From NCBI GenBank assembly GCA_021904315.1, contig CM038918.1, positions 3,177,349 through 3,241,348 of the forward strand: 64,000 bases of DNA. The letters are read 5' to 3'. The notes under the pieces are model-generated. The model was not told where the DNA came from and did not search any database. It saw only the letters and a list, made by a program, of their open reading frames with translations. Each line of letters starts with the position of its first letter. Within the stretch, counting starts at the first letter, position 1. This document shows, piece by piece, positions 34,339 to 64,000 of this stretch. The translations under genes and the position numbers were made by a program. This DNA comes from Sphagnum magellanicum (taxonomy: Eukaryota; Streptophyta; Sphagnopsida; Sphagnales; Sphagnaceae).

Positions 34339-34919
34339 CTATGCAGTGCTGGAGGTGCTGGAAGTCCTCAACAAGGCACCGATTCCAGCTTCTGCAGCAG
34401 ACAAAGCAAATCCAATTCCATGTCTGGAGTTGGTCCAAAGGCACAGATGGCGGAAACCAGCAAACCCACCAACAAAGGCACCGTTTTCTCGATGGATCCG
34501 GCGATGTGGGGATAGAAGCAAGTGGTAACAGGAGCTGTCAAGAGCGTGAGAGTGGCAAAGGCAGCTACAGAGACACCAGCATTCACGAAATCCGAAAACT
34601 CTAGCACGTACTTTGTGCCTGCCCCCGTGTAAATTGAGCCTTGAACACCCGAGATGTTGGCAGTTTTGAAATTCGGATTCCACAATCCTGTGCTAGTCAC
34701 AAGCCCGTAATACAACACCCCGTTCTCAGCTTTATAGCTATCCGTGAAGCAAGTAACGCAACAGAGGGCGCTAAGGACGAAGAGGGTGATACTAGTCACC
34801 ACTTTCTCAGTCACGCCGCAGTCTCCGTTGTTGGTTGCCAAGGGCGCTAGCACTTGGAACACCAGGAAGGTGCCCGTGGGAAGCACATTCGACAATTGGG
34901 TCAGAAGATCTGATGACAC
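34339..34919 (-). pseudogene. DMP (DUF679) membrane protein relic
   Basis: The minus-strand frame 34919-34368 has the DMP family signature: LLTQLSNVLPTGTFLVFQ, then an NNGDC loop, FTDSYKAENGVLYYG, a D-F-V segment (EFSDFVNAGVSVAAF), CFYPH and a last hydrophobic segment. DMPs are small four-helix plant membrane proteins with roles including senescence and gamete fusion. The conserved C-terminal RHGIGF motif lies in the next frame (about 34440-34339), so one base has been lost near 34425-34440. The frame begins at GTG with a TAA four codons upstream and no ATG, so the usual N-terminal extension is missing. It looks like a truncated, frameshifted copy. Confidence 0.75.
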
Positions 34920-37270
34920 TTTTCTATTTTAAACACTTATAAGTGCAAACATTCTATTTTCCAAAATGCCTCACATCTTTTTTTTCTTTTTTTTCCCTGT
35001 ACCTATAGAGTGATTATGACATAATTTTCATCCATGCAGAAAATAGTTACTCGTTCATTAGGCCAATAAGAGCAAAGCATGGTATTAATATCTTCATCCA
35101 TGCAGAAAGTCATTACCCATTCATTGGGCCAAGAAGAGTTGGGGGTGGTATCTTGTGCTAACTAGTAGGTTGCTAATGAAACATAGGTCCAACATTATGG
35201 GTTGTAACTCGTGACTTGATAGCCAATTCGAGCATTTAGAAATAGTGGTTAGGTTTATCCTTGATGTGTCTCTTTCTTTTTCTTCTTTTTCTATTTTCAA
35301 ATCTTTGATCCTGATAATGGGGCCCTCTTGATACACTAGAAATTTTCTGTTAGTAATTTACCATTGGTGAAAGTGCTAACACAAGGGAGATACTTCCTCC
35401 TTTAATTTAAGGAGGAAAGAAGAGCAACTACAAGAAAAAATAAAAATCCATGTACTTTACAATATGTGTCCCATCAAGAGAGAAAAATATAATACTATGT
35501 CATATTATATATACCTCTTGCCTAGAGAAAAAAGGCAAATGAAATATATGACAAATTTTAGACTTGTGTGTGCTTGTTCAGTATTTTCTTACTCACTACT
35601 TGGACTTTTGTACGTTGGGATCAACCTTTTTTTTAAAAATTCTAACCATATGTGGCCAAACTTCATCCTTGGCAGGGAAGCTACCACTAGGCCAAAAAGA
35701 GTCCTCATGTAAATTGCTATGAATGTTGTTGGATGATTTTGTATGCTATGGAAAGTTTACATAAAGAGCATGCACCTATGTTGCCATGATGATCATTGTT
35801 GCAGGGAGCAATGCTATGGACTAGGGATGATTTTCTGAACATGTTTAATAGGCATTTCCTACCCAATATCTAAAACAATTTCCAATAATTTGGCATTACT
35901 AACTTGTTCAAGGATAAGTTCTAATGATGGGTGGCTCAATATCCAAGTTATATCCAAGTAAAATTTAGCCAAAAGTATGATAGAAGGCAAGTTAATGCAA
36001 TCTAAACGCATAGTAGTAGATCCCTGTATGTGGGACAAACCATTTGGCATCTACCAATGAATTGTCATGCCCATCATTTACACAAGCTGTGCACACAAGA
36101 CAAGAAAGTCAAGAAGATATTTCTAGATTCAATGTATTTGATGAGAAAGTTTTTTTTTAACATGGAGAAATAGGTCAACCTTCTATAAGCAGTCAATTTT
36201 TGACATGGAGAGATTTTGACATCTAGTTCAAGCTAACTTGATGTCATGCAAATTCTCTTGTTTCCTTTTTGTTATTCCTTTGTACATTTTCCAAATCTAT
36301 GGTGTCTTTATAAATAAAGTTTTGCAGGGTTGCATCATACTTTGTTTCATTTTAGTGATTAGTGCATGGGTTTTCTATAGGCTCAATATGAATGGGACCA
36401 ATGTTTTTAAATTTGTGGTGTGAATGGCAAGAGGATGTGAGAAGGTAAACTCATATGGCCATTTGGAAAAAAAAATTAGACTTGCGATATTGGTGGTTAT
36501 ATTGCATTAACACCTATAAATTGGGTGAAGAGTTTTGAAGTTCTTGCTAATTCTTATCTTGACATATGTGTGTGTACAAGATCAGTATCCACACATGTAA
36601 AAGTGTTTAGCTTTTAGACTTTTAACAAATAATTATTTGATGCAATTTGATGATGTGTGGTAAATACAAGTAAATTCTAAAACTAGAAACTTTAACTTTA
36701 AACACCTCGGGGGAGGGGGGGTTTGTACTTTAGTGAGAAGGACCTTATTTGTTGCAACACCAAGTACCTATAGAAGTTAACAATGTTAGTACTATAATAT
36801 ACAAACAAAACATGATCATGCAATGTGACCTGACATTGGAAATGTAATCACACTTACAATCTTCAAAAGTTCAACCTTGCATTCAAAATTTGGACTCCAA
36901 ACCTAATGCCCATGTGTTCACTTTCATACCTTGACTTTATTTCCATCAATCCAATGTGTAATAACAAGTTAGAAAGTTGGAAAAAGAAAGTTTTTTTAAT
37001 AAAGAATTCTTGAATAAATATGTATGAAAATATTCAGATGTTTTAAGAATCAATTCTGCAATTTGAATTCATAAAACTTATAGTGGAAAATGTTTTTTCA
37101 TTTTCCACCTTGTTAATGATACCTGGTCACACAAATTCATCAAAACATAAACAAATTATAACATAGGCAAAACACATGGCAAGCCCAATATTGTACTAAC
37201 ATAACACTAATTCACCAAATTGATTTTGGTTGCTTCCATTAACCCACTAATAGTTGCTATCTTAGCAATT
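34920..37270. other. No feature recognised
   Basis: AT-rich sequence with near-repeat phrases such as CATCCATGCAGAAA near 35030 and 35095, each followed by CCATTCATT-type words and GGCCAA, indicating a small local duplication. ORFs are short and unremarkable. No RNA gene or transposon terminus was recognised. Confidence 0.45.
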
Positions 37271-46105: not shown

Positions 46106-46679
46106 TCAACACAATCCCAAAATTAATTAGTTAAAAAATAAAAATCAATGCTTCAAATATATTACTACAACCTCAAATTCCAAAAATATATTTGAGGTTG
46201 TTTTGACTAAAGACAAAACCAAAAAGAAATAAACAAACCTTCTATTAAAATTTCCATGTAAGAATCTTTCCTCACCTTGGTGATTGGAATAATCGGGAAT
46301 TGAAGGGGGGGGGGGGGTGCACATTACTTATATTAAAAGAACGATGGTACCGCGCGATGAAGCCACCCCTGAAGCTGTGCGATGAAGCCGCCCCTGAAGC
46401 CGCTCACTCTGGCCCACTGTGATATGATGGAAACCGGTGTTCAGGCATCCAGTGGATGGATGGTGCGCCGGCGGGTGCTGAGTCACTCTGGCCCAGAAGC
46501 CACCCCTGAAGCCGCTCGATGAAGCCTCCCCTGACTCCGCTCGGTACGGACAGTGCCAGTACCTGTTGACTCCGGACGGACGGTGGAAATATTTTTGCAG
46601 GGTCATATACTGAACCTCGGTGGGAAGAGAGAGAGAGAGAGATAGAGACAGAGAGGCAGAGAGAGATTTTTGTGAAGAC

Positions 46680-46900
46680 ATGGCCCGAAATGAGGAGAAA
46701 GCGCAGTCCATGTTGAGTAGGTTTGTGCAAGCCGAGAAATACAGAATCCGGGCTTGAGAGAGCATCGTCTCCGTGACCTCAATGACGAGATCAACAAGCT
46801 GATTCGTGAGAAGGGGCACTAGGAAATGAGGATCTTGGAGCTTGGAGGCCCGGATTATGCCAAAGTTGGCCCTAAAGTTACCGACAGTGAAGGAAAGGAG
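46680..46900 (+). pseudogene. ISY1: Captured ISY1 splicing-factor fragment (Helitron A)
   Basis: ATG at 46680 opens MARNEEKAQSMLSRF, the conserved start of the spliceosomal protein ISY1. A later part, EHRLRDLNDEINKLIREKGH then MRILELGGPDYAKVGPK, also matches ISY1 and lies in a different frame after an internal deletion. The piece ends at GAAAGGAG before GTAAGC, an intact-looking donor, so exon and intron borders were carried over. The GA-rich 60 bp upstream may be the donor gene's 5' leader. A TAG replaces the Trp codon of GHW. It is non-functional as protein. Confidence 0.85.
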
Positions 46901-46919
46901 GTAAGCCACAAATCCCAGG

Positions 46920-47640
46920 GGTCAGTTTACTTGGTCAGTAGTTTTTTTTTTTTTCCCTTGAGCCCTTTTCGTATCATGCTTTTTTTTTCCCTTGCTCTCA
47001 CTTTTTTCATGGGCCTTTTTTTTCTCTCTTTTTTTACTTGGTCGGTATTTTTATTTTATTTTTTTCCCTTGAGCCTCTTTCTTATCATGCTTTTTTTTTT
47101 CCTTGCTCTCACTTTTTTCCTGGGCCATTTTTTTTCCTTGCTCCCACTTTTTTCTTGGGCCTTTTTTTTTTCTCTTTTTTCTTTTAGCAGCAATTGGAAA
47201 AATATAAAGAACTGCCTTGCTGTCACTTTTTTCTTGGGCCTTTTTTTTTCTCGCTTTTTTCTTTTAGCAGCAATTGGAAAAATATAAAGAACTGCCGAGG
47301 AGAGAAAGAGAACGAGACACACACATGGGAGCGAGGGAAGGAAGGAGGGAGCCAGGTTGCCTGCTCGGTGGAGTGCATACGTGGACGGAACCATACGGGT
47401 TCACTTTTTTCATGGGCCTTTTTTTTTCTCTCTTTTTTTACTTGGTCAGTAGTTTTTTTTTTTTTTTTCCCCTTGAGCCTTTTTCTTATCATGTTTTTTT
47501 TTTCCTTGCTTTCACTTTTTTCCTGTGCCATTTTTTCTCCTTGCTCTCACTTTTTTCTTGGGCCTTTTTTATCCTCTTTTATTTCTTTTAGCAGCAATTG
47601 GAAAAATATAAAGAACCGCCGGGGAGAGAAAGAGAACAAG
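46920..47640 (+). repeat. Poly-T block array in Helitron A
   Basis: Tandem, irregular blocks of T9-T18 joined by CCCTTGAGCC, CTTATCATGC, CCTTGCTCTCAC and TTGGGCC. A second module, CAGCAATTGGAAAAATATAA, GAACxGCC, GAGAAAGAGAACxAGACAC, occurs at 47188, 47268 and 47593. Open frames through these T-runs are Phe/Leu strings with no sign of being genes. Helitron B has the same blocks at 54131-55060. Confidence 0.8.
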
Positions 47641-47864
47641 ACACACACACGGGAGCGAGGGAAGGAGGGAGGGAGCCAGGTTGCTTGCCCAGTGGAGTGC
47701 ATACGTGGACGGAACCATACGGGTTGTGATTGACGTAATGGTACCCGGTTTTCGGCAAGAATAGAGCGAGGCTGCCGCAACTTTCCGATTCGTATACCGA
47801 TTAGTGAATGTTGAAGTTGTGGCCTCCACAGATCTGAAACTGAGCATTTCATTTGGTTTCCCAG

Positions 47865-47936
47865 GTTGGGTTGATCTTTCGTACGGGAGGTGAGAGAATT
47901 AAGAATCTTCAAAGTCGTTCTGGGGTCCGCACTGAG
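47865..47936 (+). pseudogene. Captured KH-domain exon (Helitron A only)
   Basis: The 72-bp segment lies between a good acceptor (TTGGTTTCCCAG) and donor (GAG|GTATGT) and encodes 24 residues: VGLIFRTGGERIKNLQSRSG, then VRTE. This matches the KH-domain core VGxIIGKGGETIKNLQxxSGARI of plant RNA-binding proteins. The GxxG loop is altered (FRTGGE for IGKGGE), so nucleic-acid binding would be lost. Its sharp borders indicate a whole exon with flanking intron DNA. Helitron B lacks it and goes straight from the GAGACACACACACGGG module to the A-rich block. The donor gene cannot be named. Confidence 0.7.
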
Positions 47937-48069
47937 GTATGTCACAAAGACTATATACATTATGCATTCTAATTCTGTTTCATACCATTGCTTTCCATGC
48001 ACTCAGAGATTGGATTTTCTTTGTTCAACTAAATGCCCATCAAACTATATTGTCATCAAAGCAGTTATG

Positions 48070-48445
48070 TTTCCTACTAATTAAAACCTGAAACAAACAT
48101 AAGCAAAAAATAAAATAAAAACATAAAAAATAAAAAAAAGGAATGGAAATAATTGAAACAACGAAAGAGAAATACAAGAAAATTTTAAGAGACAAAAAAA
48201 TTACAAAAAAGAAGAAACCCAAAAAAAAGTAGAAATTTAAGAAAATAAAAATAAAAATAATGAAGAAAAAGCCTACTTGAAAAAGAATGAAGTGTGTTTT
48301 CTTTCTCCAAACTTCAAACTTACATCGAAATAATCGAAAATACAAAAGTGAAAAACAAACACTTTATTTTTATTATAGAAAAGCATAATAAAAAGAAAAA
48401 AACATGAAAATAAAAAATAAAAAAACTTTTAGTTTAGTTCTAGAT
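48070..48445. repeat. A-rich low-complexity block in Helitron A
   Basis: AAAATAAAAACATAAAAAATAAAA-type sequence with short unique words (GAATGGAAATAATTGAAACAACG, CTACTTGAAAAAGAATGAAG). It is repeated almost identically in Helitron B at 55105-55460. A minus-strand Phe-rich ORF through it is a composition effect. Confidence 0.7.
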
Positions 48446-48569
48446 CATTGAGAGCTTTGCGAACTTTCCATTAATCTTAAATCATCTGGATTTGATGGGG
48501 ATTTACAAATTAATTTATGTGTAACCTTGACCTTCCTCGAAGAGTGTAGGAGAAACCCCCCGCCCCAAG

Positions 48570-51500
48570 ATGCTTGAATTGTTTGGAGACAAAAATGCGT
48601 TAGCGCAAGGCACGTCAAAATCTGCACATGAACGTCGCAATCGCCTACAGAGAGAACGGCGTGTTAAACAACGTGAACACCCTTCTTTTCGCAATGACGC
48701 ATTACAATTGTTTAGAGATAGAGATGCGTCAGCTCAAGGCACGTCAGAATCTGCACATGAACGTCGCACTCGCCTATAGAGAGAACGGCGTGCTAAGCAA
48801 CGTGAACACCCTTCATTTCGTAATGACGCGTTACAATTGTTTAGAGATGGAGATGCGTCAGCTCAAGGCACGTCAGAATCTACACATGAACGTCGCACTC
48901 GCCTACAGAGAGAACGGCGTGCTAAGCAACGTGAACACCCTTCTTTTCGCAATGACGCGTTACAATTGTTTAAAGATGGAGATGTGTCAGCTCAAGGCAC
49001 GTCAGAATCTGCACAGGAACGTCGCAATCGCCTACAGAGAGAACGGCGTACTAAGCAACGTGAATAGCCTTCTTTTCGCAATGACGCATTACAATTGTTT
49101 GCAGACGCAGATGCGTCAGCCCCGGGACGATGGGATTGTGGAGAAATGGACACAATATGTGGATTCTACAGCGCGAAAATGTGGATCAAAGAATGATTGG
49201 CAAACTCAACAAACAACAACCCATAATTTTCTCTGTGTTGTGAAAATGGCAAAGTTCTGTTGCCGAATCTTCCTGCAACACCGCAAGAGCTGGAAGTTCT
49301 TTTAACCAGCAAAGAGAGAAGTGCCGTCAAATTTCGAGATGAAATTTGCATGTACAATTCGGTGTTGGCATTCACTTTGCTCAATGCCAAAGTTGATGAC
49401 TCGGTAACAGGAGGCCCTGGACCGTATTCCTTTCGCATTCAAGGTGAACTTTATCACAAAATCGGATCCTTCTGTCCTGCCGAAGGACAACGGCCACAGT
49501 TTGCACAGTTGTACATTCATGATACGAAACGTGAACGTCAAAACCGACATGTTGTTATGCCCTCGCTTGATCCAACGACGTTGGATCGGTTGTTGACCAT
49601 GATGTACAATATCAATCCCTATGTCGAAGTGTTCAAAATGGCGAGGGATATGATGGTAACAGAAGGTGCTCCCATGGATCTGAAATAGCATCTCATTACC
49701 TTTCGAACAAAGGATGCCCGCCAATATAATGTGCCAACGGCCAATGAAGTCGCTGCATTGATGGTAGGAAATGGTTCTGAGGCTGTAGACAGACGTGACG
49801 TCGTCCTTGCTCAGCAAGCTGGCCTGCTTCAGCGCATTTCTGAACTACATGTCGGATACATGGCTCTACATTATCCGTTGTTATTTCCTTATGGTGAGGA
49901 TGGATGGCATCCGAATATTCTGATCAATGCTGTTGTTGTTGATGCAAATTTGGATGAAGACCATGCGAGAAAATCTGAGCTTTAAAGAAAGCATTGCAAT
50001 GTGACAATGGCGAAATTTTATGGTTATCGACTTCAACATCGAGACACCGATGGCATTGCGTTGCTTCGGGGTGACCGATTACGGCAACAATACATTGTGG
50101 ATGCCTATGCGGGTATCGAACAAAGTCGCTTGAAGTATCTGCGCTTGAATAAAAAAAAACTTCGCGCGGATCTTTATCAAGGCCTTCAAAACGCCATTGC
50201 TGCACGTGACACTAGCGCTGCTGCGACCGAACAAAGGATCATTCTGCCATCTTCTTTCACAGTAGGTCCACGTCACATGGTTCAAAATTATCAAGATGCC
50301 ATGGCAATCTGTAGATGGGCCGGCTGCCCGGATGCGTTTGTTACATTCACTTACAATCCCCAATGGCTTGAAATCAAGAAAGCGTTGCTGCTCGGACAAC
50401 AACCTCAGGATCGACCTGATTTGGTAACCCGAGTGTTCAAAATCAAGCTAAAGGAGTTGATCAATGACATTCACAAGAACCATGTTTTGGGATGCACGAT
50501 TGTAGGAATCTATGTCGTTGAATTTCAAAAGCGTGGGCTGCCGCATGCACACATTCTCATCTTCTTTACCGAAGATTCCAAGCCACACACGGTCAAGGAT
50601 GTGGACTGCATGATCAATGCTGAACTTCCGCATTCAGAAACAAACAAGTTGGCCCACGAGACAGTTGCTAGATGCACGATGCATGGTCCATGTGGAGCTG
50701 CGTTCCCAAATGCCCCGTGCATGGAAGAAGGCAAATGCAAAAAACAATATCCACGAAAGTTCCAATCCGAGACGGTGACGGATGTAAACGGATACCCTAT
50801 TTATCGGCGTAGAAATACGGGGCACACAATTTTGGTTCATGGCATCGAATTGGATAATCGTTGGGTGGTACCGCACAATGTCTATTTATCGACCAAATAC
50901 GATGCGCACATCAACATTGAGGTCTGCAACAACATTCGTGCAGTCAAGTATCTATTCAAGTACATATATAAAGGACATGATCGTGCGACTATTGAGATCT
51001 CGCGCCAAAGCAACAATGCCACCGAAGGAAATGTGGTCGATACTGATGAAATTAAAAAATATCTCGACTGTCGCTATGTATCCGCATCGGAAGCAGCGTG
51101 GCGCATTTTCAAGTTTGATATGCATGAGCGTTTTCCTACCGTTGAGCGTCTGCAATACCATTTGCCCAATCAGCAGATGGTGTTGTTTCGCGATGACGAT
51201 GATGTGCAGGAAGTGGCAACACGGTCAGCCATTTCGAGAACGATGCTGACAGAATGGTTCAAAACAAACCAAGAATCGAAAGTTGCACGAAGCCTTACGT
51301 TTGATCAATTCCCTCAACAATGGGTGTAGAATCAGAAGTTGAAGCGATGGACACTATGCAAACAAGGTTTTGCCATTGGTCGCATGTATTATGCACACCC
51401 GACATCGGGTGAACGTTACTATTTGCGAATGCTGCTGAACTACGTCAAAGGTGCCACATGTTACGAACATTTGCGGACAGCGGATGGTAGAGAGCAGGAC

Positions 51501-53393
51501 ACATTCAAAGATGCATGCATTGTGATGGGTTTGCTTGCAGACGACAATGAATGGCATCAAGCCTTGAAAGAAGCCGGTGTTTGGGCCTCGGGACAACAGC
51601 TGCGTGACATGTTTGCCTCCATGTTGATGTTTTGCGAGGTCACGAATCCTAGACAGCTATGGGATGCACATTGGGAGTCTTTGAGCGATGACATTGAAGC
51701 AATGACACGTTGCGAGCGTGCTGATCCAACTGTCACCCTTCCTAAGGATGCGTTGAAGGATCGTGCATTGTATGAGATCGATCAGGTTCTCATCCGCATT
51801 GGACACCGCTTGGATGACTTTCCAACCCTTCCCAAGTCTAATTACATCCCTTCTATTCATGGAGGAAACCGATTGGTCCAAGAAGAATTGACTTATGATC
51901 GGCATTCATTGACCACAGATGCGAATAATGCAGAAGATAGGCTCAATGATGATCAATGCAACGCATACGAAACTATTTTGAATGTCGTGACAAACAAACA
52001 GGGCAAGCTGTTCTTTGTGTATGGCAGTGGTGGGACTGGCAAAATATTTGTTTGGACAACACTTTTGTCCCGTCTACGAGGGCAAGGCAAAATCGTGCTT
52101 GCAGTTGCCTCATCAGGAATTGCATCTTTGTTGCTTCCGGGCGGCAGAACCACCCATTCAAGATTCAAGATTCCAATTGATCTGCACGATGAGTCAACTT
52201 GCAACATCACACAACAGATGAAAGTGGCGGAGTTGGTGCGTAAAGATGATCTAATCATTTGGGATGAAGCACCGATGATGCATCGCCGAGCTTTCGAAGC
52301 TGTTGATCGCACCCTGCGTGATTTGATGCAGTTGGATGACGCACAGGCAACCGAGAAAATCTTTGGTGGGAAAACCATGGTCCTTGGTGGGGATTTTCGA
52401 CAAATCTTACCTGTGGTTCCCAAGGGAGGACGAGAAGACATTGTCAGTGCTTCTTTGCTTCGGTCGTATCTTTGGCAGCATGTTACAATTCTTCGTCTTC
52501 ATATCAACATGCGAGTCATGGCAACCAATTCTGAAGAGCAGCGAGAGTTTGCCAAATGGGTGTTGAATGTTGGAGATGGTAATCTTCCCGCCATTGCAGA
52601 AGAAGAAGGTGTCGATCCAGATTGGATCGAAATTCCACCCCATATGAGGCTGCCAGCAGAAGATTGCAGCTTAAGAGGATTAATCCGAACCATCTATCCG
52701 GATCATCGGTGCCACTCTGGAGATGCCATGTATCTTATGCAACGCAGCATTCTAGCCCGCAAAAATACTGATGTTGATGAAGTCAACAATGGAATTTTAG
52801 AATCGCTATCTGAAGAATCGCACACGTACTTGAACGCAAATTCTTTGACTCTAACAAAAGAAGGTGCAAGTGTTGCTGCAGGAGTTTCAATGGATTCATT
52901 GTATCCGGTGGAATTTTTAGACACTTTGCGATTTAGCGGTATCGCAAATCATGAGCTCGAACTCAAAGTGGGTGTGCCAATCCTTTTGTTGCGTAATCTC
53001 AATCAATCAATAGGATTGTGCAATGGTATGAGGTTGATTGTCAAAAGATTGGGTCAGCGTGTCATTGAAGCGAAAATCATCACAGGAAACAATGTCGGCA
53101 AATGTGTGTTCATACCCCGCATCATCATGTCCCCCTCCGGGACTAATTGGCCATTTGTTTTGCGTCGTCGTCAATTTCCAGTTCGAGTGGCATTTGCGAT
53201 CACAATCAACAAGAGTCAAGGTCAAACATTCAACAACGTTGGGGTATATTTATCGTCTCCGGTCTATTCCCATGGTCAGCTCTATGTTGTTATTTCACAG
53301 GTCACAAGTAGTGCAAACATTAAGATTTTCAACGGCCAGGGTCCCGATGGATACATGCGGAATGTTGTATATAAAGAGGTTTTGGAAATGTAA
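48570..53393 (+). pseudogene. RepHel protein of Helitron A, 1,608 codons with stops
   Basis: Replication initiator fused to a Pif1-type helicase. One frame runs from ATG 48570 to TAA 53393. Order: four 43-residue basic repeats, Helitron-like N region (GYMALHYPLLFPYGEDGW, near 49857), Rep domain with FVTFTYNPQW, HUH motif GLPHAHILIFF (His codons 50544 and 50550) and catalytic-Tyr motif YLFKYIYKG (50949), then helicase with Walker A GSGGTGKI (52023), [32 protein letters not shown] and VISQVTS. Stops: 48777, 49065, 49194, 49224, 49686, 49983 and 51327. Against copy B, six of these are C-to-T or G-to-A changes. Walker A Thr is Ile and the motif VI Arg is Gln, so the helicase would be dead even without stops. 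The start was chosen because both copies keep this ATG. Confidence 0.9.
48577..49092 (+). repeat. 129-bp tandem repeat, four units, coding
   Basis: The anchor AATTGTTT recurs at 48577, 48706, 48835, 48964 and 49093, exactly 129 bp apart, giving a 43-residue repeat in the RepHel N-terminus. The unit includes LQLFRDGDASAQGTSES, then HERRTRLQRERRAKQREHPS. Arg-rich repeats there may bind DNA. A second frame is open through the repeat (48628-49305), which is expected when one open unit is copied. Confidence 0.9.
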
Positions 53394-53540
53394 TTGGTAG
53401 GTGTAATTTTGTAATATGTATCGTCAAATGCACATGCAAAAATGAATTCATACTACATTTTTTATTTAAAATAAACAAAGTAACTACGACACCAATATCA
53501 TTGAGCACCATTTTGTAATATGTACCGTCAAATACACACA

Positions 53541-53570
53541 CTTGTGCATTATGCACGGGACACACACTAG
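53541..53570 (+). other. Helitron A 3' hairpin and CTAG end
   Basis: CTTGTGCATTATGCACGGG forms a stem with a one-base loop (GTGCAT-T-ATGCAC core), followed by ACACACACTAG. A palindrome about 11 bases before CTRR is the hallmark 3' end of Helitrons, where the rolling-circle cycle stops. The next base, 53571, is already the T of the next element's 5' end. Confidence 0.95.
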
Positions 53571-53886
53571 TCTCTTATATTAAAAGAAGGATGAAGCCGC
53601 CCTTGAAGCCGCTCACTGTGGCCCACTGTGATCTGATGGAAATCGGTGTCCAGGCATCCAGTGGATGGATGGTGCGCCGGCGGCTGCTGAGTCACTCTGG
53701 CCCACAAGCTGCCCCTGAGGCCGCTCGATGAAGTCTCCCCTGACTCCGCTGGGTACAAATAGTGGCAATACCTGCTGACTCCGGACGGACGGTGCAAATA
53801 TTTTTGCAGGGTCATATCCTGAACCTCGGTGGGAAGAGAGAGAGAGAGATAGAGACCGAGAGGCAGAGAGAGATTTTTGTGAAGAC

Positions 53887-54111
53887 ATGGCCCGAAATGA
53901 GGAGAAAGCGCAGTCCATGTTGAGTAGGTTTGTGCAAGCCGAGAAATACAGAATCTTGGCTTGGGAGAGCATCGTCTCCGTGAACAAGCTGATTCGTGAG
54001 AAGGGGCACTGGGAAGTGAGGATCTTGGAGCTTGGAGGCCCGGATTATGCCAAAGTTGGCCCTAAAGTTACCGACAGTGAAGGAAAGGAGTTAAGCCACA
54101 AATCCCAGGGG
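53887..54111 (+). pseudogene. ISY1: Captured ISY1 fragment (Helitron B), first copy
   Basis: Opens with ATG 53887 and reads MARNEEKAQSMLSRFVQAEK, then NKLIREKGHW and ILELGGPDYAKVGPKVTDSE in one frame. Compared with Helitron A, 17 bp are missing from the HRLRDLNDEIN region, which happens to restore one frame between the two ISY1 parts. The donor GT seen in A is TT here (GGAGTTAAGC), so the frame reads on into LSHKSQG and the poly-T block. The full ISY1 protein is far longer; this covers only N-terminal parts. Confidence 0.85.
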
Positions 54112-54130
54112 TCAGTTTACTTGGTCAGTA

Positions 54131-55060
54131 GTTTTTTTTTTTTTTTCCCTTCAGCCTTTTTCTTATCATGCTTTTTTTTTCCCTTGCTCTCACTTTTTTC
54201 ATGGGCCTTTTTTTTTCTCTCTTTTTTTACTTGCTCATTAGTTTTTTTTTTTTTTTTTTTTTTTTCCCTTGAGCCTTTTTCTTATCATGCTTTTTTTTTT
54301 TCCTTGCTCTCATTTTTTTCGTGAGAAGGGGCACTGGGAAGTGAGGATCTTGGAGCTTGGAGGCCCGGATTATGCCACACTTGGCCCTAAAGTTACCGAC
54401 AGTGAAGGAAAGGAATTAAGCCACAAATCCCAGGGGTCAGTTTACTTGGTCAGTAGTTTTTTTTTTTTTCCCTTCAGCCTTTTTCTTATCATGCTTTTTT
54501 TTTTCCCTTGCTCTCACTTTTTTCGTGGGCCTTTTTTTTTCTCTCTTTTTTTACTTGCTCATTAGTTTTTTTTTTTTTTTTTTTTTCCCTTGAGCCTTTT
54601 CTTATCATGCTTTTTTTTTTCCTTGCTCTCATTTTTTTCCTCGGCCATTTTTTTTCCTTGCTTTGACTTTTTTCTTGGGCCTTTTTCATTCTCTTTTTTT
54701 TTCTTTTAGCGGCAATTGGAAAAATATAAAGAACCGCCGGGGAGAGAAAGAGAACGAGACACACACACGGGAGCGAGGGAAGGAGGGAGGAAGCCAGGTT
54801 GCCTGCCCGGTGGAGTGCATACGTGGACGCTACCATACGGGTTCACTTTTTTCATGGGCCTTTTTTTTTCTCTCTTTTTTTACTTGGTTAGTATTTTTTA
54901 TTTTTTTTTCCCTTGAGCCTTTTTCTTATCACGCTTTTTTTTTCCCTTCCTCTCACTTTTTTCCTAGGCCATTTTTTTTCCTTGCTCTCACTTCTTTCTT
55001 GGGCCTTTTTTATCCTCTTTTTTTTCTTTTTGTCGTAATTGCAAAAATATAAAGAACCGC
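54131..55060 (+). repeat. Poly-T block array in Helitron B with duplicated ISY1 piece
   Basis: Same T-run modules as in Helitron A. At 54319-54420 part of ISY1 (REKGHWEVRILELGGPDYA) recurs, exactly 325 bp after its first occurrence at 53994, together with the following CCCAGGGGTCAGTTTACTTG and T runs. This is an internal tandem duplication unique to Helitron B within the window. Confidence 0.8.
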
Positions 55061-55104
55061 TGGGGAGAGAAACAGAAAGAGACACACACACGGGAAGTTG
55101 TGTT

Positions 55105-55460
55105 TCCTGCTAATTAAAACCTGAAACAAACATAAAGAAAAAATAAAATAAAAACATAAAATATAGAAAAAAGGAATGGAAACAATTGAAACAATGAAAC
55201 AGAAATACATGAAAATTTTAAAAGACAAAAAAATTACAAAAAAGAAGAAACCCAAAAAAAACTAGGAATTTAAGAAAATAAAAATTAAAAAAATGAAGAA
55301 AAAGCCTACTTGAAAAAGAATGAAGTGTGTCTTCTTTCTCCAAACTTCAAACTTGCATCGAAATAATCAAAAATACAAAAGTGAAAAACAAACACTTTAT
55401 TTTTATTATACAAAAGAATAATAAAAAGAAAAAAACATGGAAATAAAAAATTAAAAAACT
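55105..55460. repeat. A-rich low-complexity block in Helitron B
   Basis: Near-identical counterpart of 48070-48445, including GAATGGAAACAATTGAAACAATG and CTACTTGAAAAAGAATGAAG. No gene is visible between here and the RepHel ATG. Confidence 0.7.
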
Positions 55461-55597
55461 TTTAGTTTAGCTCTTGATCATTGACAGCTCTGCGAACTTT
55501 CCATTAATCTTAAATCATCTGGATTTGATGGGGATTTACAAATTAATTTATGTGTAACCTTGACCTTCCTCAAAGAGTGTAGGAGAAACCCCCCAAG

Positions 55598-58500
55598 ATG
55601 TTCGAATTGTTTGGAGACAAAGATGCGTTGGCGCAAGGCACGTCATAATCTACACATGAACGTCGCAATCGCCTACAGAGAGAACGGCGTGCTCAGCAAC
55701 GTGAACACCCATCTTTTCGCAATGACGCATTACAATTGTTTGGAGATGGAGATGCGTCAGCTCAAGGCACGTCCGAATCTGCACATGAACGTCGCAATCG
55801 CCTACAGAGAGAACGGCGTGCTAAGCAACGTGAACAGCCTTCTTTTTGCAATGACGCATTGCAATTGTTTGGAGATGGAGATGCGTCCGCTCAAGGCACG
55901 TCCGAATCTGCACATGAACGTCGTAATCGCCTACAGAGAGAATGCCGTGCTGAGCAACGTGAACATCCTTCTTTTCGCAATGACGCATTCCAATTGTTTC
56001 GAGATGGATATGCGTTGGCTCAAGGCACGTCGGAATCTGCACATGAACGTCGCAATCGCCCACAGAGAGAACGGCGTGCTAAGCAACATGAACACCCTTC
56101 CTTTCGCAATGACGCATTCCAATTGTTTGGAGATGGAGATGTGTCCGCTCAAGGCACGTCCGAATCTACACATGAACGTCGCAATCGCCTACAGAGAGAA
56201 TGCCGTGCTGAACAACGTGAACAACCTTCTTTTCGCAATGACGCATTACAATTGTTTGCAGACGCAGATGCGTCAACCCCGGGACGATGGGATTGTGGAG
56301 AAATGGACACAATATGTGGATTCTACAGCGCGAAAATGTGGATCAAAGAACGATCGGCAAACTCAACAAACAACAACCCACAATTTTCTCTGTGTTGCGA
56401 AAAGGGCAAAGTTCTGTTGCCGAATCTTCCTGCAACACCGCAAGAGCTAGAAGCTCTTTTAACCAGCAAAGAGAGAAGTGCCGTCAAATTTCGAGATGAA
56501 AATCGCATGTACAATTCGGTGTTGACATTCACTTCGCTCGGTGCCAAAGTTGATGACTCGGTAACAGGAGGCCCTGGACCGTATTCCTTTCGCATTTAAG
56601 GTGAAATTTATCACAAAATCGGATCCCTATGTCCTGCCGAAGGACAACGGCCACAATTTGCACAGTTGTACATTCATGATACGAAACGTGAACGTCAAAA
56701 CCGGCATGTTGTTATGCCCTCGCTTGATCCAACGACGTTGGATTGTTGACCATGATGTACGTCAAAACCGGCATGTTGTTATGCCCTCGCTTGATCCAAC
56801 GACGTTGGATTGTTGACCATGATGTACAATATCAATCCCTATGTCGAAGTGTTCAAAATGGCGAGGGATATGATGGTAACAGAAGGTGCTCCCATGGATC
56901 TGAAATTGCGTCTCATTGCCTCTCGAACAAAGGATGCCCGCCAATACAATGTGCCAACGGCCGATGAAGTCGTTGCATTGATGGTAGGAGATGGTTCTGA
57001 GGCTGTAGACAGACGTGATGTCGTCCTTGCTCAACAAGCTGGCCCGCTTCAACGCATTTCTGAACTACATGTCGGATACATGGCTCTACATTATCCGTTG
57101 TTATTTCCTTATGGTGAGGATGGATGGCATCCGAATATTCTGATCAATGCTGTTGTTGCTGATGCAAATTTGGATGAAGACCATGCGAGAAAATCTGAGC
57201 TTCAAAGAAAGCATTGCAATGTGACAATGGCGAAATTTTATGGTTATCGACTTCAACATCGAGACACCGATGGCATTGCGTTGCTTCGGGGTGACCGATT
57301 ACGGCAACAATACATTATGGATGCCTATGCGGGTATCGAACAAAGTCGCTTGAAATATCTGCGCTTGAATAAAAAAAAACTTCGCGCGGATATTTATCAA
57401 GGCCTTCAAGACGCCATTGCTACAGGTGACACTAGCGTTGCTGCCATCAGACAGAGGATCATTCTGCCATCTTCTTTCACAGTAGGTCCACGTCACATGG
57501 TTCAAAATTATCAAGATGCCATGGCAATCTGTAGATGGGCCGGCTGCCCGGATGCGTTTGTTATATTCACTTACAATCCCCAATACCTTGAAATCAAGAA
57601 AGCGTTGCTGCTCGGACAACAACCTCAGGATCGACCCGATTTGGTAACCCGAGTGTTCAAAATCAAGCTGAAAGAGTTGATCAATGACATTCACAATAAC
57701 CATGTTTTGGGATGCACGATTGCAGGAATCTATGTCGTTAAATTTCAAAAGCGTGGGCTGCCGCATGCACACATTCTCATCTTCTTTACCAAAGATTGCA
57801 AGCCACACACGGTCGAGGATGTCGACTGCATGATCAGTGCTGAACTTCCGAATTCAGAAACAAACAAGTTAGCCCACGAGACAGTTGCCAGATGCACGAT
57901 ACATGGTCCATGTGGAGCTGCGTTCCCAAATGCCCCATGCATGGAAGAAGGCAAATGCAAAAAACAATATCCACGAAAGTTCCAATCCGAGACGGTGACG
58001 GATGTAAACGGATACCCTATTTATCGGCGTAGAAATACGGGGCACACAGTTTTGGTTCATGGCATGGAATTGGACAATCGTTGGGTGGTACCGCACAATG
58101 TCTATTTATCGACCAAATACGATGCGCACATCAACGTTGAGGTCTGCAACAACATTCGTGCAGTCAAGTATCTATTCAAGTACGTATATAAAGGACATGA
58201 TCGTGCGACTGTTGAGATTTCACGCCAAAAGCGACAATGCCACTGAAGGAAATGTGGTCGCTACTTATGAAATTAAAAGATATCTCGACTGTCGCTATGT
58301 ATCCGCATCGGAAGCAGCGTGGCGCATTTTCAAGTTTGATATGCATGAGCGTTTTCCTACCGTTGAGCGTCTGCAATACCATTTGCCCAATCAGCAGATG
58401 GTGTTGTTTCGCGATGACGATGATGTGCAGGAAGTGGCAACATGGTCGGGCATTTCGAGAACGATGCTGACAGAATGGTTCAAAACAAACCAAGAATTGG

Positions 58501-60614
58501 AAGTTGCACGAAGCCTTACGTTCGATCAATTCCCTCAACAATGGGTGTGGAATCGGAAGTTGAAGCGATGGACACTGTGCAAACAAGGTTTTGCCATTGG
58601 TCGCATGTATTATGCACACCCGACATCGGGTGAACGTTACTACTTGCGAATGCTGCTGAACTGCATCAAAGGTGCCACATGTTACGAACATTTGCGGATA
58701 GTGGATGGTAGAGAGCACGACACATTCAAAGATGCATGCATTGCGATGGGTTTGCTTGCAAACGACAATGAATGGCATCAAGCCTTGGAAGAAGCCGGTG
58801 TTTGGGCCTCGGGACGACAGTTGCGTGACATGTTTGCCTCCATGTTGATGTTTTGCGAGGTCGCGAATCCCAGACAACTATGGGATGCACATTGGGAGAC
58901 TTTGAGCGATGACATTGAAGCAATGACACGTTGCGAGCGTGCTGATCCAACTATCACCCTTCCTGAGGATGCGTTGAAGGATCGTGCATTGTATGAGATC
59001 GATCACGTTCTCATCCGCAATGGACACCGCCTGGAAGACTTTCCAACCCTTCCCAAGTTTAATTACATCCCTTTTGTTCATAAAGGAAACCGATTGGTCC
59101 AAGAAGAACTGGCTTATGATCGGCATTCATTGACCACAAATGCGAACAATGCAGAAGATAGGCTCAATGATGATTAACGTAACGCATACGAAACTATTTT
59201 GGATGCCGTGACAAACAAACAGGGCAAGCTGTTCTTTGTGTATGGCAGTGGTGGGACCGGCAAAACATTTGTTTCGACAACACTTCTGTCCCGTCTACGA
59301 GGGCAAGGCAAAATAGTGCTTGTAGTTGCCTCATCAGGAATTGCATCTTTGTTGCTTCCGGGCGGCAGAACCACCCATTCAAGATTCAAGATTCCAATTG
59401 ATCTGCACGATGAGTCAACTTGCAACATCACACAACAGATGAAAGTGGCAGAGTTGGTGCGTAAAGCTAATCTAATCATTTGGGATGAAGCACCGATGAT
59501 GCATCGTCGAGCTTTCGAAGCTGTTGATCGCACCCTGCGTGATTTGATGCAGTTGGATGATGCACAGGCAACCGAAAAAATCTTTGGTGGGAAAACCATG
59601 GTCCTTGGTGGGGATTTTCGACAGATTTTACCTGTGGTTCCCAAGGGAGGACGAGAAGACATTGTCAGTGCTTCCTTGCTTCGGTCGTATCTTTGGTAGC
59701 ATGTTACAATTCTTCGTCTTCATATCAACATGCGAGTCATGGCAACCAATTCTGAAGAGCAGCGAGAGTTTGCCAAATGGGTGTTGAATGTTGGAGACGG
59801 TGCTCTTCCCGCCATTGCAGGAGAAGAAGGTGTCGATCCAGATTGGATCAAAATTCCACCCCATATGAGGCTGCCAGTAGAAGATTGTAGCTTAAGAGGA
59901 TTAATCCGAACCATCTATCCGGATCACCGGTGCCACTCTGGAGATGCCATGTATCTTATGCAACGTAGCATTCTAGCCCCGAAAAATACTGATGTTGATG
60001 AAGTCAACAATGCAATTTTAGAATCACTATCTGAAGAATTGCACACGTACCTGAGCGCAAATTCTTTGACTCCAACAGAAGAAGGTGCAAGTGTTGCTGT
60101 AGGGGTTTCAATGGATTCATTGTATCCGGTGGAATTTTTAGACACTTTGCGATTTAGCAGTATCGCAAATCATGAGCTCGAACTCAAAGTGGGTGTGCCA
60201 ATCCTTTTGTTGCGTAATCTCAATCAATCGATAGGATTGTGCAATGGTACGAGGTTGATTGTCAAAAGATTGGGTCACCGTGTCATTGAAGCGGAAATCA
60301 TCACAGGAAACAATGTCGGCAAACGTGTGTTCATACCCCGCATCATCATGTCCCCCTCCGGGACTAATTGGCCATTTGTTTTGCGTCGTCGTCAATTTCC
60401 AGTTCGAATGGCATTTGCGATCACAATCAACAAAAGTCAAGGTCAAACATTCAACAACGTTGGGGTATATTTGCCGTCTCCGGTCTATTCCCATGGTCAG
60501 CTCTATTTTGCTATTTCACGGGTCACAAGTAGTGCAAACATTAAGATTTTCAACGGCCGGGGTCCCGATGGATACATGCGGAATGTTGTATATAAAGAGG
60601 TTTTGGAAATGTAG
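55598..60614 (+). pseudogene. RepHel protein of Helitron B, frameshifted
   Basis: Same domain order as copy A, from ATG 55598 to TAG 60614. Its span, 5,017 bp, equals copy A's 4,824 plus one 129-bp repeat unit, 63 and 1. The +63 is a 4-bp deletion followed by a 67-bp tandem duplication at 56693-56826, leaving a TGA at 56747 but restoring frame. The +1 is an extra A near 58228. Other stops: TAA 55646, TAA 56597, TAA 59175, TAG 59697; the last three are CAA or CAG in copy A. Here Walker A is intact (GSGGTGKTF at 59244), as is motif VI (AISRVTS), and the HUH motif and YLFKYVYKG are present. It is inactive as it stands, but its helicase residues are better preserved than in A. Confidence 0.9.
55605..56249 (+). 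repeat. 129-bp tandem repeat, five units, coding
   Basis: Anchors at 55605, 55734, 55863, 55992, 56121 and 56250, all 129 bp apart, so five full units against four in Helitron A. Units encode the same LQLFGDGDASAQGTSES and RRNRLQRERRAKQRE text, with Cys/Ala variants (RRNRLQRECRAEQRE) in units three and five. Alternation of variants suggests unequal exchange of a two-unit block. Confidence 0.9.
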
Positions 60615-60761
60615 TTGGTAGGTGTAATTTTGTAATATGTATCGTCAAATGCACAGGCAAAAATGGATTCATACTACATTTTTTATTTAAAATAAACAAA
60701 ATAATTGCGACACCAATATCATTGAGCACCATTTTGTAATATGTACCGTCAAATACACACA

Positions 60762-60795
60762 CCTGTGCATTATGCACGGGGTTCACCAATGGTTG
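60762..60795 (+). other. Bypassed Helitron B hairpin without CTAG
   Basis: The hairpin CCTGTGCATTATGCACGGG is intact but is followed by GTTCACCAATGGTTG instead of GCACACACTAG. The same altered junction occurs at 62464 and 63272. With its CTRR end lost, this hairpin probably no longer ends transposition. Confidence 0.8.
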
Positions 60796-60916
60796 TCCAA
60801 AATTAGAAAAATTGGTTTTGACCCAGACCCATGGTTCTCACAAAAATAAAGGATCAGTCAAAAAATGGTGCTATTCGGAATTATTTGGGAACACACAGGT
60901 TTCTACCCTCCAGTGT

Positions 60917-61262
60917 AGTAGGTACGTAGGTGGATCGGTAGGTAGATAGGTCAATAGGTAGGTAGGTAGGAAGGTGGGTCGGTAGGTAGGTAGGTAGATA
61001 GGTAGGTAGGTTAGTAGGTAGGTAGGTAGGTCGATCGGTAGGTGGGTCGATAGGTAGGTAGGTCGATAGGTAGGTCGGTAGGTAGGTAGGTCGATAGGTA
61101 GGACGGTATGTTGGTAAGTGGGTATGTAGGTAGGTAGGTAGGTAGGTAGGTAGGTCGGAAGATCGATCGGTAGGTAGGTGGGTCGATACGTAGGTAGGTA
61201 GGTGGGTCGATAGGTAGGTAGGTGGGTCGGTAGGTAGGTAGGTGGGCCGGTAGGTAAGTGGG
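60917..61262. repeat. GGTAGG/GGTCGATAGG array in Helitron B tail
   Basis: About 345 bp of GTAG-based tetranucleotide repeat with regular TCGATAGG and TCGGTAGG interruptions. The same array follows the bypassed hairpin in the two small elements (about 62618-62905 and 63427-63745). Length differences arise from extra GGTAGG blocks. Confidence 0.9.
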
Positions 61263-61320
61263 ATTGGGAGATAGTGGGGTTTTTATTTCACCTGTGCATT
61301 ATGCACGGGGCACACACTAG

Positions 61321-62159
61321 CTTCCCTTGAAGCCGTGCATTTGGTTGGCTTCCCCTGAATCCGTCCCGTCATCCGTCCTCTGTCCATCCGTCCAGTCATC
61401 CATCCAAACAGAACATGCATGCTAAGCCTTCCCATTGGTTGCATGAAATTTCTATTTCCAAAACTGTTCGTCACCATATAAACTGGGGGTACTTATTTAG
61501 TATTAGGGATGCCATATTTACCAGGGTTAGAAGCATCCTAAAAAATGTCAGGGTTTTGACCAGTGTGGGTGCCGGTTCATCGGGCTCTTTGATGTGCCCC
61601 CAAAAAAACTTATATATATAAACTATAAAGGGGGCCAAAGGGAAGCACCTCTGTGCTTCTATTTTGGGGCGGGAGTGCCATATCCTTTGTTATATGTAGA
61701 CTACCTTACATTGTTCCCATAGTTCCAATATATGGAATGCCAAAATTTGGCGATTAAGGCCATTCATTTTCACAAAAAATGTTAGAATGTGTAGAAAAAA
61801 TAGATTTCAGGTTGAAACAATGAAAATAAATTCCCCCAAAAAGAACCTAGCAATGTGGTATATAGAGAGGTTTTGGAAATGTAGTTTGTAGTTGTAATTT
61901 TGTAATATGTATCGTCAACCACTGCTACTACTATTTGATGGGATCGACGGGTTAAAAAATCGAAGTGGGAAATACAAAGGATCGGGCGAGGGGGGGTCGA
62001 CGGGATAAAGAACCGGAGTAAGAAATGCGAAGGATTGGCGCGAGGGGGGGGATCGACGGGTTAAAGAACCGGAGTGGGAAATGTGAAGGACCGACGGAGT
62101 GGGGATCGACAGTTGTTTGAAAACACACACCCGTGCATTATGCACGGGGCTCACACTAG
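61321..62159 (+). mobile_element. 5'-truncated Helitron deletion derivative
   Basis: Starts right after CTAG at 61320 but with CTTCCCTTGAAGCC, lacking the T(C/T)xCTTATATT end, so its 5' terminus is missing. Unique sequence to about 61850 is followed by TATAGAGAGGTTTTGGAAATG to about 61915, matching the end of RepHel and its 3' flank at 60588-60648. A 59-bp minisatellite follows, then the perfect 9-bp hairpin CCCGTGCATTATGCACGGG (62130-62148), and the element ends CTAG at 62159. Confidence 0.75.
61940..62110. repeat. ~59-bp minisatellite, three units
   Basis: Units share GGATCGACGGGTTAAAGAAC, CGGAGTGGGAAATG and GAAGGATxGGCGCGAGGGGG. Three copies, diverged at their edges, lie inside the 61321-62159 Helitron derivative, just before its terminal hairpin. 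Confidence 0.7.
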
Positions 62160-62977
62160 TTACTTATATTAAAGGAACGATGGTACCGCCCAATGAAGTC
62201 GCCCCTGAATCCGCGCAATGAAGCCTCCCTTAACTCCGCTCACGGACGGGTGCTGAGTCACTCTAGCCCAGTGTGATCCATGGAAACCGATGTTTGGCAG
62301 CAATCCAAAAAACCCCGTTCTGGGATTTCATGGATGGGATGAAACTGCCCCCCAGGGGTCAGTTTACCGGGGCGAGGGGGGGGGAGGGGACCAATGGTTG
62401 TTTGAAAAAAATAAGTTTTTTTTAAAACCAAAAACATCAACCAAACATTGTTGAAATAATACACCTGTGCATTATGCACGGGGTTCACCAATGGTTGTCC
62501 AAAATCACAAAAATTGGTTTTGACCCAGACCCATGGTTCTCACAAAAATAAAGGATCAGTCCAAAAATGGTGCTATTGGCAATTATTTGGGAACATACAG
62601 GTTTCTGCCCTCCAGTGTAGTAGGTAGGTAGGTGGATCGGTAGGTAGGTAGGTCAATAGGTAGGCAGGTAGGTAGGTAGGTAGGTCGGTCGGTCGGTAGG
62701 TAGGTAGGTCGACAGGTAGGTAGGTAGGTAGGTGGGTCGATAGGTAGGTAGGTCGATAGGTAAGTAGGTCGGTAGGTAGGTACGTAGGTGGATCGGTAGG
62801 TAGGTAGGTTGTGGATGGGTAGGTAGGTGGGTCGATGGGTAGGTAGGTCGATCGGTAGGTAGGTGGGTCGGTGGGTAGGTAGGTGGGCCGGTAGGTAAGT
62901 GGGATTGGGAGATTGTGGTTTGGGGAGATAGTGGGATTTTTATTTCACCTGTGCATTATGCACGGGGCACACACTAG
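62160..62977 (+). mobile_element. Non-autonomous Helitron, 818 bp
   Basis: The 5' end TTACTTATATTAAAGG follows CTAG of the previous element directly and is of the Helitron A type. Internal landmarks: GATGAAGC-type subterminal repeats, CACTCTAGCCCAGTGTGATCC, CCCCAGGGGTCAGTTTACC with a G run, a bypassed hairpin (62464-62482, then GTTCACCAATGG), the GGTAGG tail, a terminal hairpin 62948-62966 and CTAG at 62977. It contains no coding capacity and would need RepHel in trans. Confidence 0.9.
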
Positions 62978-63817
62978 TCTCTTATATTAAAAGAAGGATG
63001 AAGTCGCCCCTGAAGCCGCGCGATGAAGCCGCCCTTAACTCCGCTCACGGACGGGTGCTGAGTCACTCTGGCCCAGTGTGATCCATGGAAACCGGTGTTT
63101 GGCAGCAATCCAAAAAACCCCGTTCTGGGATTTCATGGATGGGATGAAACTGCCCCCCAGGGGTCAGTTTACCGAGGCGAGCGGGGGGGGGGGGGGACCA
63201 ATGGTTGTTTGAAAAGAATAAGTTTTTTTTTAAAACGAAAAACATCAACCAAACATTGTTGAAATAATACACCTGTGCATTATGCACGGGGTTCACCAAT
63301 GGTTGTCCAAAATCACAAAAATTGGTTTTGACCCAGACCCATGGTTCTCACAAAAATAAAGGATCAGTCCAAAAATGGTGCTATTGGCAATTATTTGGGA
63401 ACATACAGGTTTCTGCCTTCCAGTGTAGTAGGTAGGTAGGTGGATCGGTAGGTAGGTAGGTCAATAGGTAGGCAGGTAGGTAGGTAGGTCAATAGGTAGG
63501 CAGGTAGGTAGGTCAATAGGTAGGCAAGTAGGTAGGTAGGTAGGTCGACAGGTAGGTAGGTAGGTAGGTAGGTGGGTCGATAGGTAGGTAGGTCGATAGG
63601 TAAGTAGGTCGGTAGGTAGGTACGTAGGTGGATCGATAGGTAGGTAGGTTGTGGATGGGTAGGTAGGTGGGTCGATGGGTAGGTAGGTCGATCGGTAGGT
63701 AGGTGGGTCGGTGGGTAGGTAGGTGGGCCGGTAGGTAAGTGGGATTGGGAGATTGTGGTTTGGGGAGATAGTGGGATTTTTATTTCACCTGTGCATTATG
63801 CACGGGGCACACACTAG
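62978..63817 (+). mobile_element. Non-autonomous Helitron, 840 bp
   Basis: The 5' end TCTCTTATATTAAAAG is of the Helitron B type. The body and tail are almost the same as 62160-62977, with the bypassed hairpin at 63272-63290 and terminal hairpin at 63788-63806, ending CTAG at 63817. The main length difference is extra TCAATAGGTAGGCAGG blocks in the tail array. It abuts its neighbours without spacer on both sides. Confidence 0.92.
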
Positions 63818-64000
63818 TCTCTTATATTAAAAGAAGGATGAAGTCGCCCCTGAAGCCGCGCGATGAAGCCGCCCTTAACTCCGCTCACGGACGGGTGCTG
63901 AGTCACTCTGGCCCAGTGTGATCCATGGAAACCGGTGTTTGGCAGCAATCCAAAAAACCCCGTTCTGGGATTTCATGGATGGGATGAAACTGCCCCCCAG
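63818..64000 (+). mobile_element. Sixth Helitron unit, cut by the window end
   Basis: Begins TCTCTTATATTAAAAG directly after CTAG and is essentially identical to the first 183 bp of the preceding element (62978-63160). The array therefore continues beyond the window. Confidence 0.92.

Follow-up and report, generated by a model that had tools for sequence, protein, structure and literature searches.

The window analyzed here, a 64,000-nt stretch of Sphagnum DNA, carries six Helitrons (U1–U6, the last running past the window end) arranged head to tail with zero host bases between the units, two with broken Rep-helicase genes and four short. We regard it as probable that the array is a train that grew as one Helitron after another inserted at the 5' tip of an element already in place. 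The units span 18,336 bp (window coordinates 46324–64659) between a host A and a host T. The right edge of the train lies 659 bp past the window end, where U6 closes with CTAG/TATGGG (slashes mark joins or insertion points), and the host target of the whole train is a single A/T, GTGCACA^TATGGG. The features, all on the plus strand, are:

46324..53570 (+), U1, Helitron with a broken Rep-helicase gene; 7247 bp; 5' end TTACTTATATT after host A; 3' hairpin and CTAG
50001..51329 (+), Rep part of the U1 Rep-helicase; PF14214, E 8.9e-54; Helraiser 7lcc, E 1.1e-124
51339..53393 (+), PIF1-like helicase part of the U1 Rep-helicase; PF05970, E 9.1e-87; 7lcc, E 1.5e-114
53571..61320 (+), U2, Helitron with a broken Rep-helicase gene; 7750 bp; 5' end TCTCTTATATT
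60765..60787 (+), internal pseudo-terminator of U2; a right-end hairpin, then CACCAATGG where CACACTAG is expected
61321..62159 (+), U3, non-autonomous, 5'-truncated; starts at CTAG/CTTCCC
62160..62977 (+), U4, non-autonomous; 818 bp; 5' type TTACTTATATT; internal pseudo-terminator at 62467
62978..63817 (+), U5, non-autonomous; 840 bp; 5' type TCTCTTATATT; internal pseudo-terminator at 63275
63818..64000 (+), U6, first 183 bp in the window; continues to 64659, 842 bp in total; internal pseudo-terminator at 64117

The original prediction had called a head-to-tail array of at least six Helitrons; six units were counted, with all five joins at the bases it gave, and the differences in length, content and 5' type that it described among them were borne out. 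The prediction saw the usual terminus at four of the five joins; CACTAGTNNCTTATATTAAA has four copies in the window (at 53565, 62154, 62972 and 63812), compared with zero in 100 dinucleotide-preserving shuffles. The fifth join, between U2 and U3 (61320/61321), reads CTAG/CTTCCC, the normal 5' end being absent from U3. All five right ends inside the window fold, at minimum energy, into an 8-bp stem with a 3-nt loop placed 11 nt before the end, and the five units ending there carry the CTRR terminus with a hairpin about 10–12 nt upstream that is typical of Helitrons. The 5' TC of canonical Helitrons (Helitron1) is present in U2, U5 and U6; U1 and U4 start with TT, and U3 is truncated. A search of Rfam gave zero matches at gathering thresholds.

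The Rep and helicase regions have the composition of a Helitron transposase, with a PIF1-like helicase behind the Rep part (PF05970, 7lcc). The translation contains HAH and YLSTKYDAHIN, aligned with Helraiser 7lcc, which we take to be the HUH motif and the two catalytic tyrosines. U2 is likewise recognized (Rep, PF14214, E 7.7e-49; PIF1 helicase, PF05970, E 1.7e-71). The reading frames of both units are broken: in the compared frame, stops lie at 49686, 49983 and 51327 in U1, one stop separating its Rep part from its helicase part, and U2 has, relative to U1, two stops and one single-base shift of its own in the compared region. The two Rep-helicase regions diverge by 4.1%, with 50 synonymous and 96 non-synonymous substitutions against 45.9 and 101.2 in a neutral simulation; these counts carry no signal of purifying selection, and its use as a clock for U1 and U2 was dropped for that reason. 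The left ends of the two units are unlike each other, and the pair is possibly a duplication. The pseudo-terminator of U2 is followed by a GGTA-rich tail of about 530 bp that is common to U4 and U5.

The genome-wide junction search that the original prediction proposed indicates that the locus has counterparts elsewhere: joins that are direct or leave a short spacer number 75, at 50 loci on 17 contigs, with zero in a reversed-pattern control, and right-end matches occur at 641 places. Repeats misassemble easily and the train is known here from assembled sequence, but the number of loci, the varied combinations of units and the location of the fetched sites on contigs of 18–36 Mb make an assembly artefact extremely improbable. 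Joins preceded by AG and similar to CTAG/CTTCCC also recur elsewhere in the genome.

What these ends insert into was read from two surveys of a single 5'-end class, which cover 74 distinct places: 28 are directly joined to CTAG, 2 are spaced and 1 is a decayed CTCG join, and the remaining 43 lack both CTAG and CTCG immediately ahead of them. Of these, 42 are preceded by A, one by T and none by G. One of the 42 (C6:8214713) sits behind an apparent decayed right end. Among the matches listed, 51 of 59 3' ends of one subtype and 21 of 22 of the other have T as the next base. Together with an unoccupied duplicate described below, these ends correspond to the canonical mode, in which a Helitron enters between A and T and duplicates no target bases. 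Insertion at G/T just behind the CTAG of a resident would yield the same joint and is one of the two options discussed by Du et al. 2008, the other of which required a later excision (PMC2267711, as excerpted). It is disfavoured by the 42 of 43 ends that follow A and by displaced tips that place newcomers in front of the resident, and we consider it very unlikely. The prediction had argued that canonical Helitrons inserting one after another should not give such joins, having considered only G/T insertion behind CTAG. That argument fails because insertion between a host A and the first T of a resident is canonical, produces the same join and restores A/T.

The order of insertion can be followed where the tip of the resident itself contains an A/T. 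In five of the six trains that were traced, a resident of this kind (TTA/TATATTG, TCA/TATATAG) is split there and the newcomers separate its tip, in front, from its body; matching tips were found in L012, L016, L020, L023 and L029. Among the 47 exact matches listed, unjoined TATATTG is preceded by A/TTA in 19 of 24 cases, by A/TCA in 2 and by other sequence in 3, unjoined TATATAG is preceded by A/TCA in 8 of 8, the tip is absent with CACACTAG directly ahead in 12, and 3 were set apart. The trinucleotide thus tracks the subfamily (TATATTG with TTA 19 and TCA 2, TATATAG with TCA 8; Fisher p 1e-5), and a host target consensus ATYA/T, which the survey of 5' ends had suggested, was dropped because of this association. 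The L020 tip is not specific, TATATATT being found after TCA and after TTA, and the front at C1:11434270 is TCA, yet TATATTG, which usually goes with TTA, is what the resident joined there shows at C1:11434686. L025 carries an extra 7 bp between tip and newcomer, and a search for a second full copy of its left flank returned the flank itself and three partial matches of 77–84%; it was withdrawn as proof of order, the newcomer and resident being common to L025 and L029 and the left flank not.

For one of the trains with a split resident, 11 kb long, the duplicated site without the train lies at a distance of 46 kb, at C17:18563404. The flanks of this duplicate are unequally diverged, with 99.8% identity over 1008 bp on the left versus 96–97% on the right (96.2% over 133 bp, 97.3% over 1124 bp), and repeat copy number differs; a precise loss of the train rather than its gain is possible. 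Train L018, like the window train, occupies a single A/T. Displaced tips and the unoccupied duplicate thus support insertion at the front for other trains. The window train has no split tip, and the same order is carried over to it from those trains as a presumption short of proof.

We also compared units with their neighbours. From 36 hand-defined units, five that were the sole ones sampled at their locus were left out, and 26 of the remaining 31, from multi-unit trains, match best elsewhere than the adjacent unit; the five that match it best are all in this window. Most of the neighbours sampled are members of different subfamilies. U3 is matched end to end by L016_b, a unit of a different train, at about 94%. 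L015_b and L015_e are mutual best matches inside one train and are not adjacent; L016_d as defined comprises a unit plus a resident.

These comparisons bear on a rolling-circle concatemer, in which replication overruns the terminator and the multimer is inserted in a single event. Adjacent units would then be copies of one element, a pattern that U5 and U6, taken by themselves, would fit (5 substitutions, 2 gap columns); the neutral divergence of U1 and U2 also fits joint arrival, which makes the window neighbours an exception. Helraiser is reported to make circles with end-to-end joints, and published excerpts include an earlier reading of tandem Helitrons in plants and bats along these lines. 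However, 26 of 31 units are closest to non-neighbours and therefore concatemers are not the general cause; 5' types vary within trains, and the split, displaced tips require insertion into a resident. A concatemer origin of the array is accordingly unlikely.

Equally doubtful is the idea that arrays are built and expanded by recombination, whether homologous or unequal, in which one joint pairs with another or a circle with a resident. U4 and U5 have a common body, with 17 columns of their alignment differing inside the opening 34 nt of U4, and the left ends of U1 and U2 differ, as if left ends had been swapped; U5 and U6 resemble a recent tandem duplication. Against this, neighbours of different subfamilies are alike mainly at their ends, and the unoccupied duplicate corresponds to a clean A/T insertion. 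The concatemer or recombination origin put forward by the original prediction is unlikely as a general cause but possible for U5/U6, a pair that could have arisen by duplication in place or as a dimer, and perhaps for U4 and U1/U2.

Right-end subtypes were compared as well. TT-type right ends are followed by a strict left-end core in 2 of 22 cases versus 24 of 59 for the C-type (p 0.007, among the matches listed); at fetched loci, chosen by their join pattern, the figures are 1 of 5 versus 33 of 42 (p 0.017). The subtype test used 81 of 100 listed matches (641 places in total), 19 other one-mismatch matches being dropped, and the right-end figures describe the listed part of the GCACGGGGCNCACACTAG and TT-subtype ends of the genome. 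An insertion order based on subtype was set aside, the relative age of the subtypes being unproven.

In repeated insertion at resident 5' tips, a newcomer would enter the A/T that forms where the host A meets the T opening the resident's left end. If there is an A/T within the tip, entry would be three bases inside the resident instead. Every insertion would leave CTAG/T behind the newcomer and A/T in front of it, and the target site would therefore never be exhausted; with newcomers at the front tip of the older element, a circular concatemer would be unnecessary for trains. The window train would have grown from right to left. The transposase may recognize the left end of the resident as its own initiation site, that nick serving as acceptor, and joined units may sometimes travel together through bypass of an internal terminator. 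The CTAG/CTTCCC join of U2 and U3 is not explained by A/T insertion. In the Helraiser system, two findings speak for insertion at tips, according to excerpts of the reports: 46 of 1,751 insertions were not at AT, with TT, AC and AA as the main alternatives, and a single-stranded end-junction oligonucleotide was cut precisely at the joint; 701 re-insertions showed no clustering near donors, which counts against tip-targeting (PMC4778049, PMC5876387). We give even odds to a self-homing mode, in which any family member's left end would serve the transposase as initiation site and acceptor. Elements would then stack tip to tail at a single base step, trains would carry autonomous copies along, and weak internal terminators would let joined units transpose as composites.

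Plant Helitrons are likewise found in tandem in the arrays that Xiong et al. 2016 reportedly described in plant centromeres. A later paper refers to these centromere arrays as truncated Helitrons inserted in tandem (PMC5148889), whereas here the units are mostly two-ended, belong to different subfamilies and occur at 50 loci on 17 contigs. The excerpts of Du et al. 2008 already list insertion in front of a resident as an alternative, and their maize pair with its G/T junction likewise has CTAG followed directly by TC in unlike elements; it is one pair whose order is unresolved, whereas Sphagnum has many trains, the longest of six units, together with split tips and a duplicate site that is unoccupied (PMC2267711). 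Maize helitrons lying near or inside others share the preference for Helitrons, a damaged internal CTAG and multiple termini (pseudo-3' ends), base-exact use of a resident 5' tip not being described in the excerpted account (PMC3288121). The bat Helraiser has a homologous transposase (PMC4778049, PMC5876387), and Helraiser and tandem fungal Helitrons show end-to-end joints and terminator bypass, as here (PMC5148889). Excerpts of that literature suggest that a Helitron can insert beside a second one or within the 5' end of the latter (PMC4778049, PMC5876387, PMC5148889) and do not describe genome-wide stacking of the Sphagnum kind. A Populus paper deals with Helitron-linked gene arrays (PMC13253262).

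Direct Helitron joins were thus already known; their abundance and the evidence on order are, to our knowledge, new. The literature, as far as excerpted, is divided on whether tandem Helitrons are circle concatemers or successive insertions, and the unoccupied duplicate and split tips bear on that order in individual trains, the 641 right-end matches providing many copies in which to measure it. Helitron trains are a source of composite elements, and they offer a testable idea of how a rolling-circle transposase chooses its target.

The window carries a head-to-tail train of six Helitrons (U1 to U6) that abut directly, with 0 bases between neighbours, which bears out the original prediction of an array of at least six units; the window stops within the sixth. 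The features are:

46324-53570: U1, Helitron encoding Rep and a PIF1-type helicase
53571-61320: U2, Helitron encoding Rep and a PIF1-type helicase
61321-62159: U3, short Helitron
62160-62977: U4, short Helitron
62978-63817: U5, short Helitron
63818-64659: U6, short Helitron, its final 659 bp past the window end
34371-34928, minus strand: DUF679-domain open frame (PF05078, E 9.8e-41), of a family known from land plants
12622-12924: tandem array of about five 59-bp repeats

The direct CTAG|T joins likewise hold: four of the five read CTAG|T plus left end, a pattern absent from 100 shuffles, and the fifth (61320, U2|U3) reads CTAG|CTTCCC. The train has a host A on its left and a T on its right, so its whole 18.3 kb occupies one A|T. 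The Rep and helicase parts of U1 match Helraiser, a bat Helitron, in the PDB. The Rep-helicase region compared is broken in both long units, by three stops in U1 and by two stops and a one-base shift in U2, with no disabling mutation in common. Upstream of Rep, each long unit has 129-bp (43-codon) tandem repeats (48577-49120, 4.2 copies; 55605-56275, 5.2 copies).

The proposed genome-wide junction search (439 Mb, 31 contigs) revealed that the window locus is not unique: in 75 cases, against 0 in the control, a left-end core lies no more than eight bases behind an exact right end. These cases spread over 50 loci and 17 contigs. Sorted by hand from the tally, 37 joins carry a full-looking left end joined directly, 24 carry TATATTG, TATATAG or TATATAT, which are left ends short of their tip (first bases), six carry short left ends of other kinds, which may or may not lack a tip, and eight show a short spacer between the two ends. 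One left-end class, covered by two overlapping surveys, gave 74 distinct places: 28 directly joined, two spaced, one decayed join, 42 after A (one adjoining an apparent decayed right end upstream) and one after T. Such a share of joined ends (28/74) would not be expected from random choice among A|T steps. A second train of two units (window coordinates 67263-70853), 2.6 kb past the first on the same strand, has a second unit opening with TCTTATATAGTAAAGG directly after CTAG and closing in a decayed CTCG. Among 100 of the 641 right-end matches, several are flanked on their far side by TATGGGATTAA or near variants, which would fit more than one hit on another repeat at an identical place.

The original prediction required a newcomer to land behind CTAG. 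This does not follow, as frontal insertion also yields CTAG|T: a newcomer entering between the host A and the first T of a resident would leave CTAG|T behind it and retain A|T for the next. We favour such serial insertion ahead of residents, backed by unlike neighbours, split tips and an unoccupied duplicate. The best match is the adjacent unit for 5 of 31 units in the sampled multi-unit trains, all five in the window, and one subfamily (L013_a, L014_a, L016_c, L018_a, L020_b) has several unlike right neighbours.

The tip survey found 222 places, of which 100 were listed; the figures derive from the 47 exact rows among these. A|TTA stands before 19 of the 24 unjoined TATATTG, A|TCA before two and others before three; all unjoined TATATAG (8/8) have A|TCA there. 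These subfamily-specific trinucleotides indicate that the tips belong to the elements. Directly after CACACTAG, six TATATTG and six TATATAG lack the tip; three rows were set apart (two after other TAG ends, one of another left-end type). A fitting tip stands ahead of the newcomers in L012, L020 (compatible, but without specificity), L023 and L029, and in L016 between the CTAG of one unit and the following units. An extra 7 bp follows the tip in L025, and at C1:11434270, among the places listed, TCA stands at the front, yet the joined resident is TATATTG.

At C17:18563404, GATAATCA passes directly into TATATAGTAAAGG with no train between. Its left flank recurs 46 kb away (99.8% over 1,008 bp, as far as the fetched sequence reaches), followed there by an 11.2-kb three-unit train and the same resident. 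The resident side matches at 96.2% over 133 bp and 97.3% over 1,124 bp, with a repeat-copy difference between. The simple reading would be that the newcomers entered an A|T target at a resident already in place; the unoccupied copy may instead have lost its train precisely.

Besides serial insertion, other processes may have shaped the window's own train. U1 and U2 diverge by 4.1% over Rep-helicase, in a neutral pattern; five substitutions and two gap columns separate U5 from U6. Either pair could reflect joint arrival or duplication. The bodies of U4 and U5 correspond but their left ends are unlike, as are those of U1 and U2, as though left ends had been exchanged. U2, U4, U5 and U6 each contain an internal right-end hairpin whose CTAG is ruined; behind it, U2, U4 and U5 have a common tail bearing a new right end, the known mark of terminator bypass. 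A train on C17 and a locus on C6 have in common a Rep-bearing unit, then CTAG|CCGCCCC and an identical hairpin variant, a pattern suggesting that joined units can be mobilised together. Unusual joins (CTAG|CTTCCC, CTAG|CCGCCCC, CTAG|GAAGG) occur at window 61320, L017 6102 (minus), L021 4321 (minus), C6:21428396, C6:21429135 and C17:18516394; their downstream left ends are apparently cut right after AG (GAAG|CTTCCC, GAAG|CCGCCCC, AAAG|GAAGG), not at A|T. Candidate causes are deletion at microhomology or another type of joining.

A Rep search of the genome for autonomous copies, scoring 95 of 575 candidates, gave at least 98 matches. Rep lies within 10 kb of 18 of the 50 join loci, the window's locus counted (uniform placement expects about 0.2), and among the matches obtained, 14 of the 22 with at least 90% identity fall within 10 kb of a join.

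Published work already describes G/T joints, tandem arrays of bats and plants, Helitrons inserted near others of their kind, and terminator bypass. In the literature searched, most subscription journals lying outside it, neither base-exact stacking of such abundance nor an unoccupied duplicate fixing insertion order came up. The data support the target, the order in the traced trains and the mixing of subfamilies; why the transposase finds tips, we infer. Helraiser transposase initiates transposition at the left end. It cuts its end joint precisely when this is offered as single-stranded DNA (PMC5876387). Most simply, recognition of its own left end would also open the tip of a resident, presenting it as acceptor.
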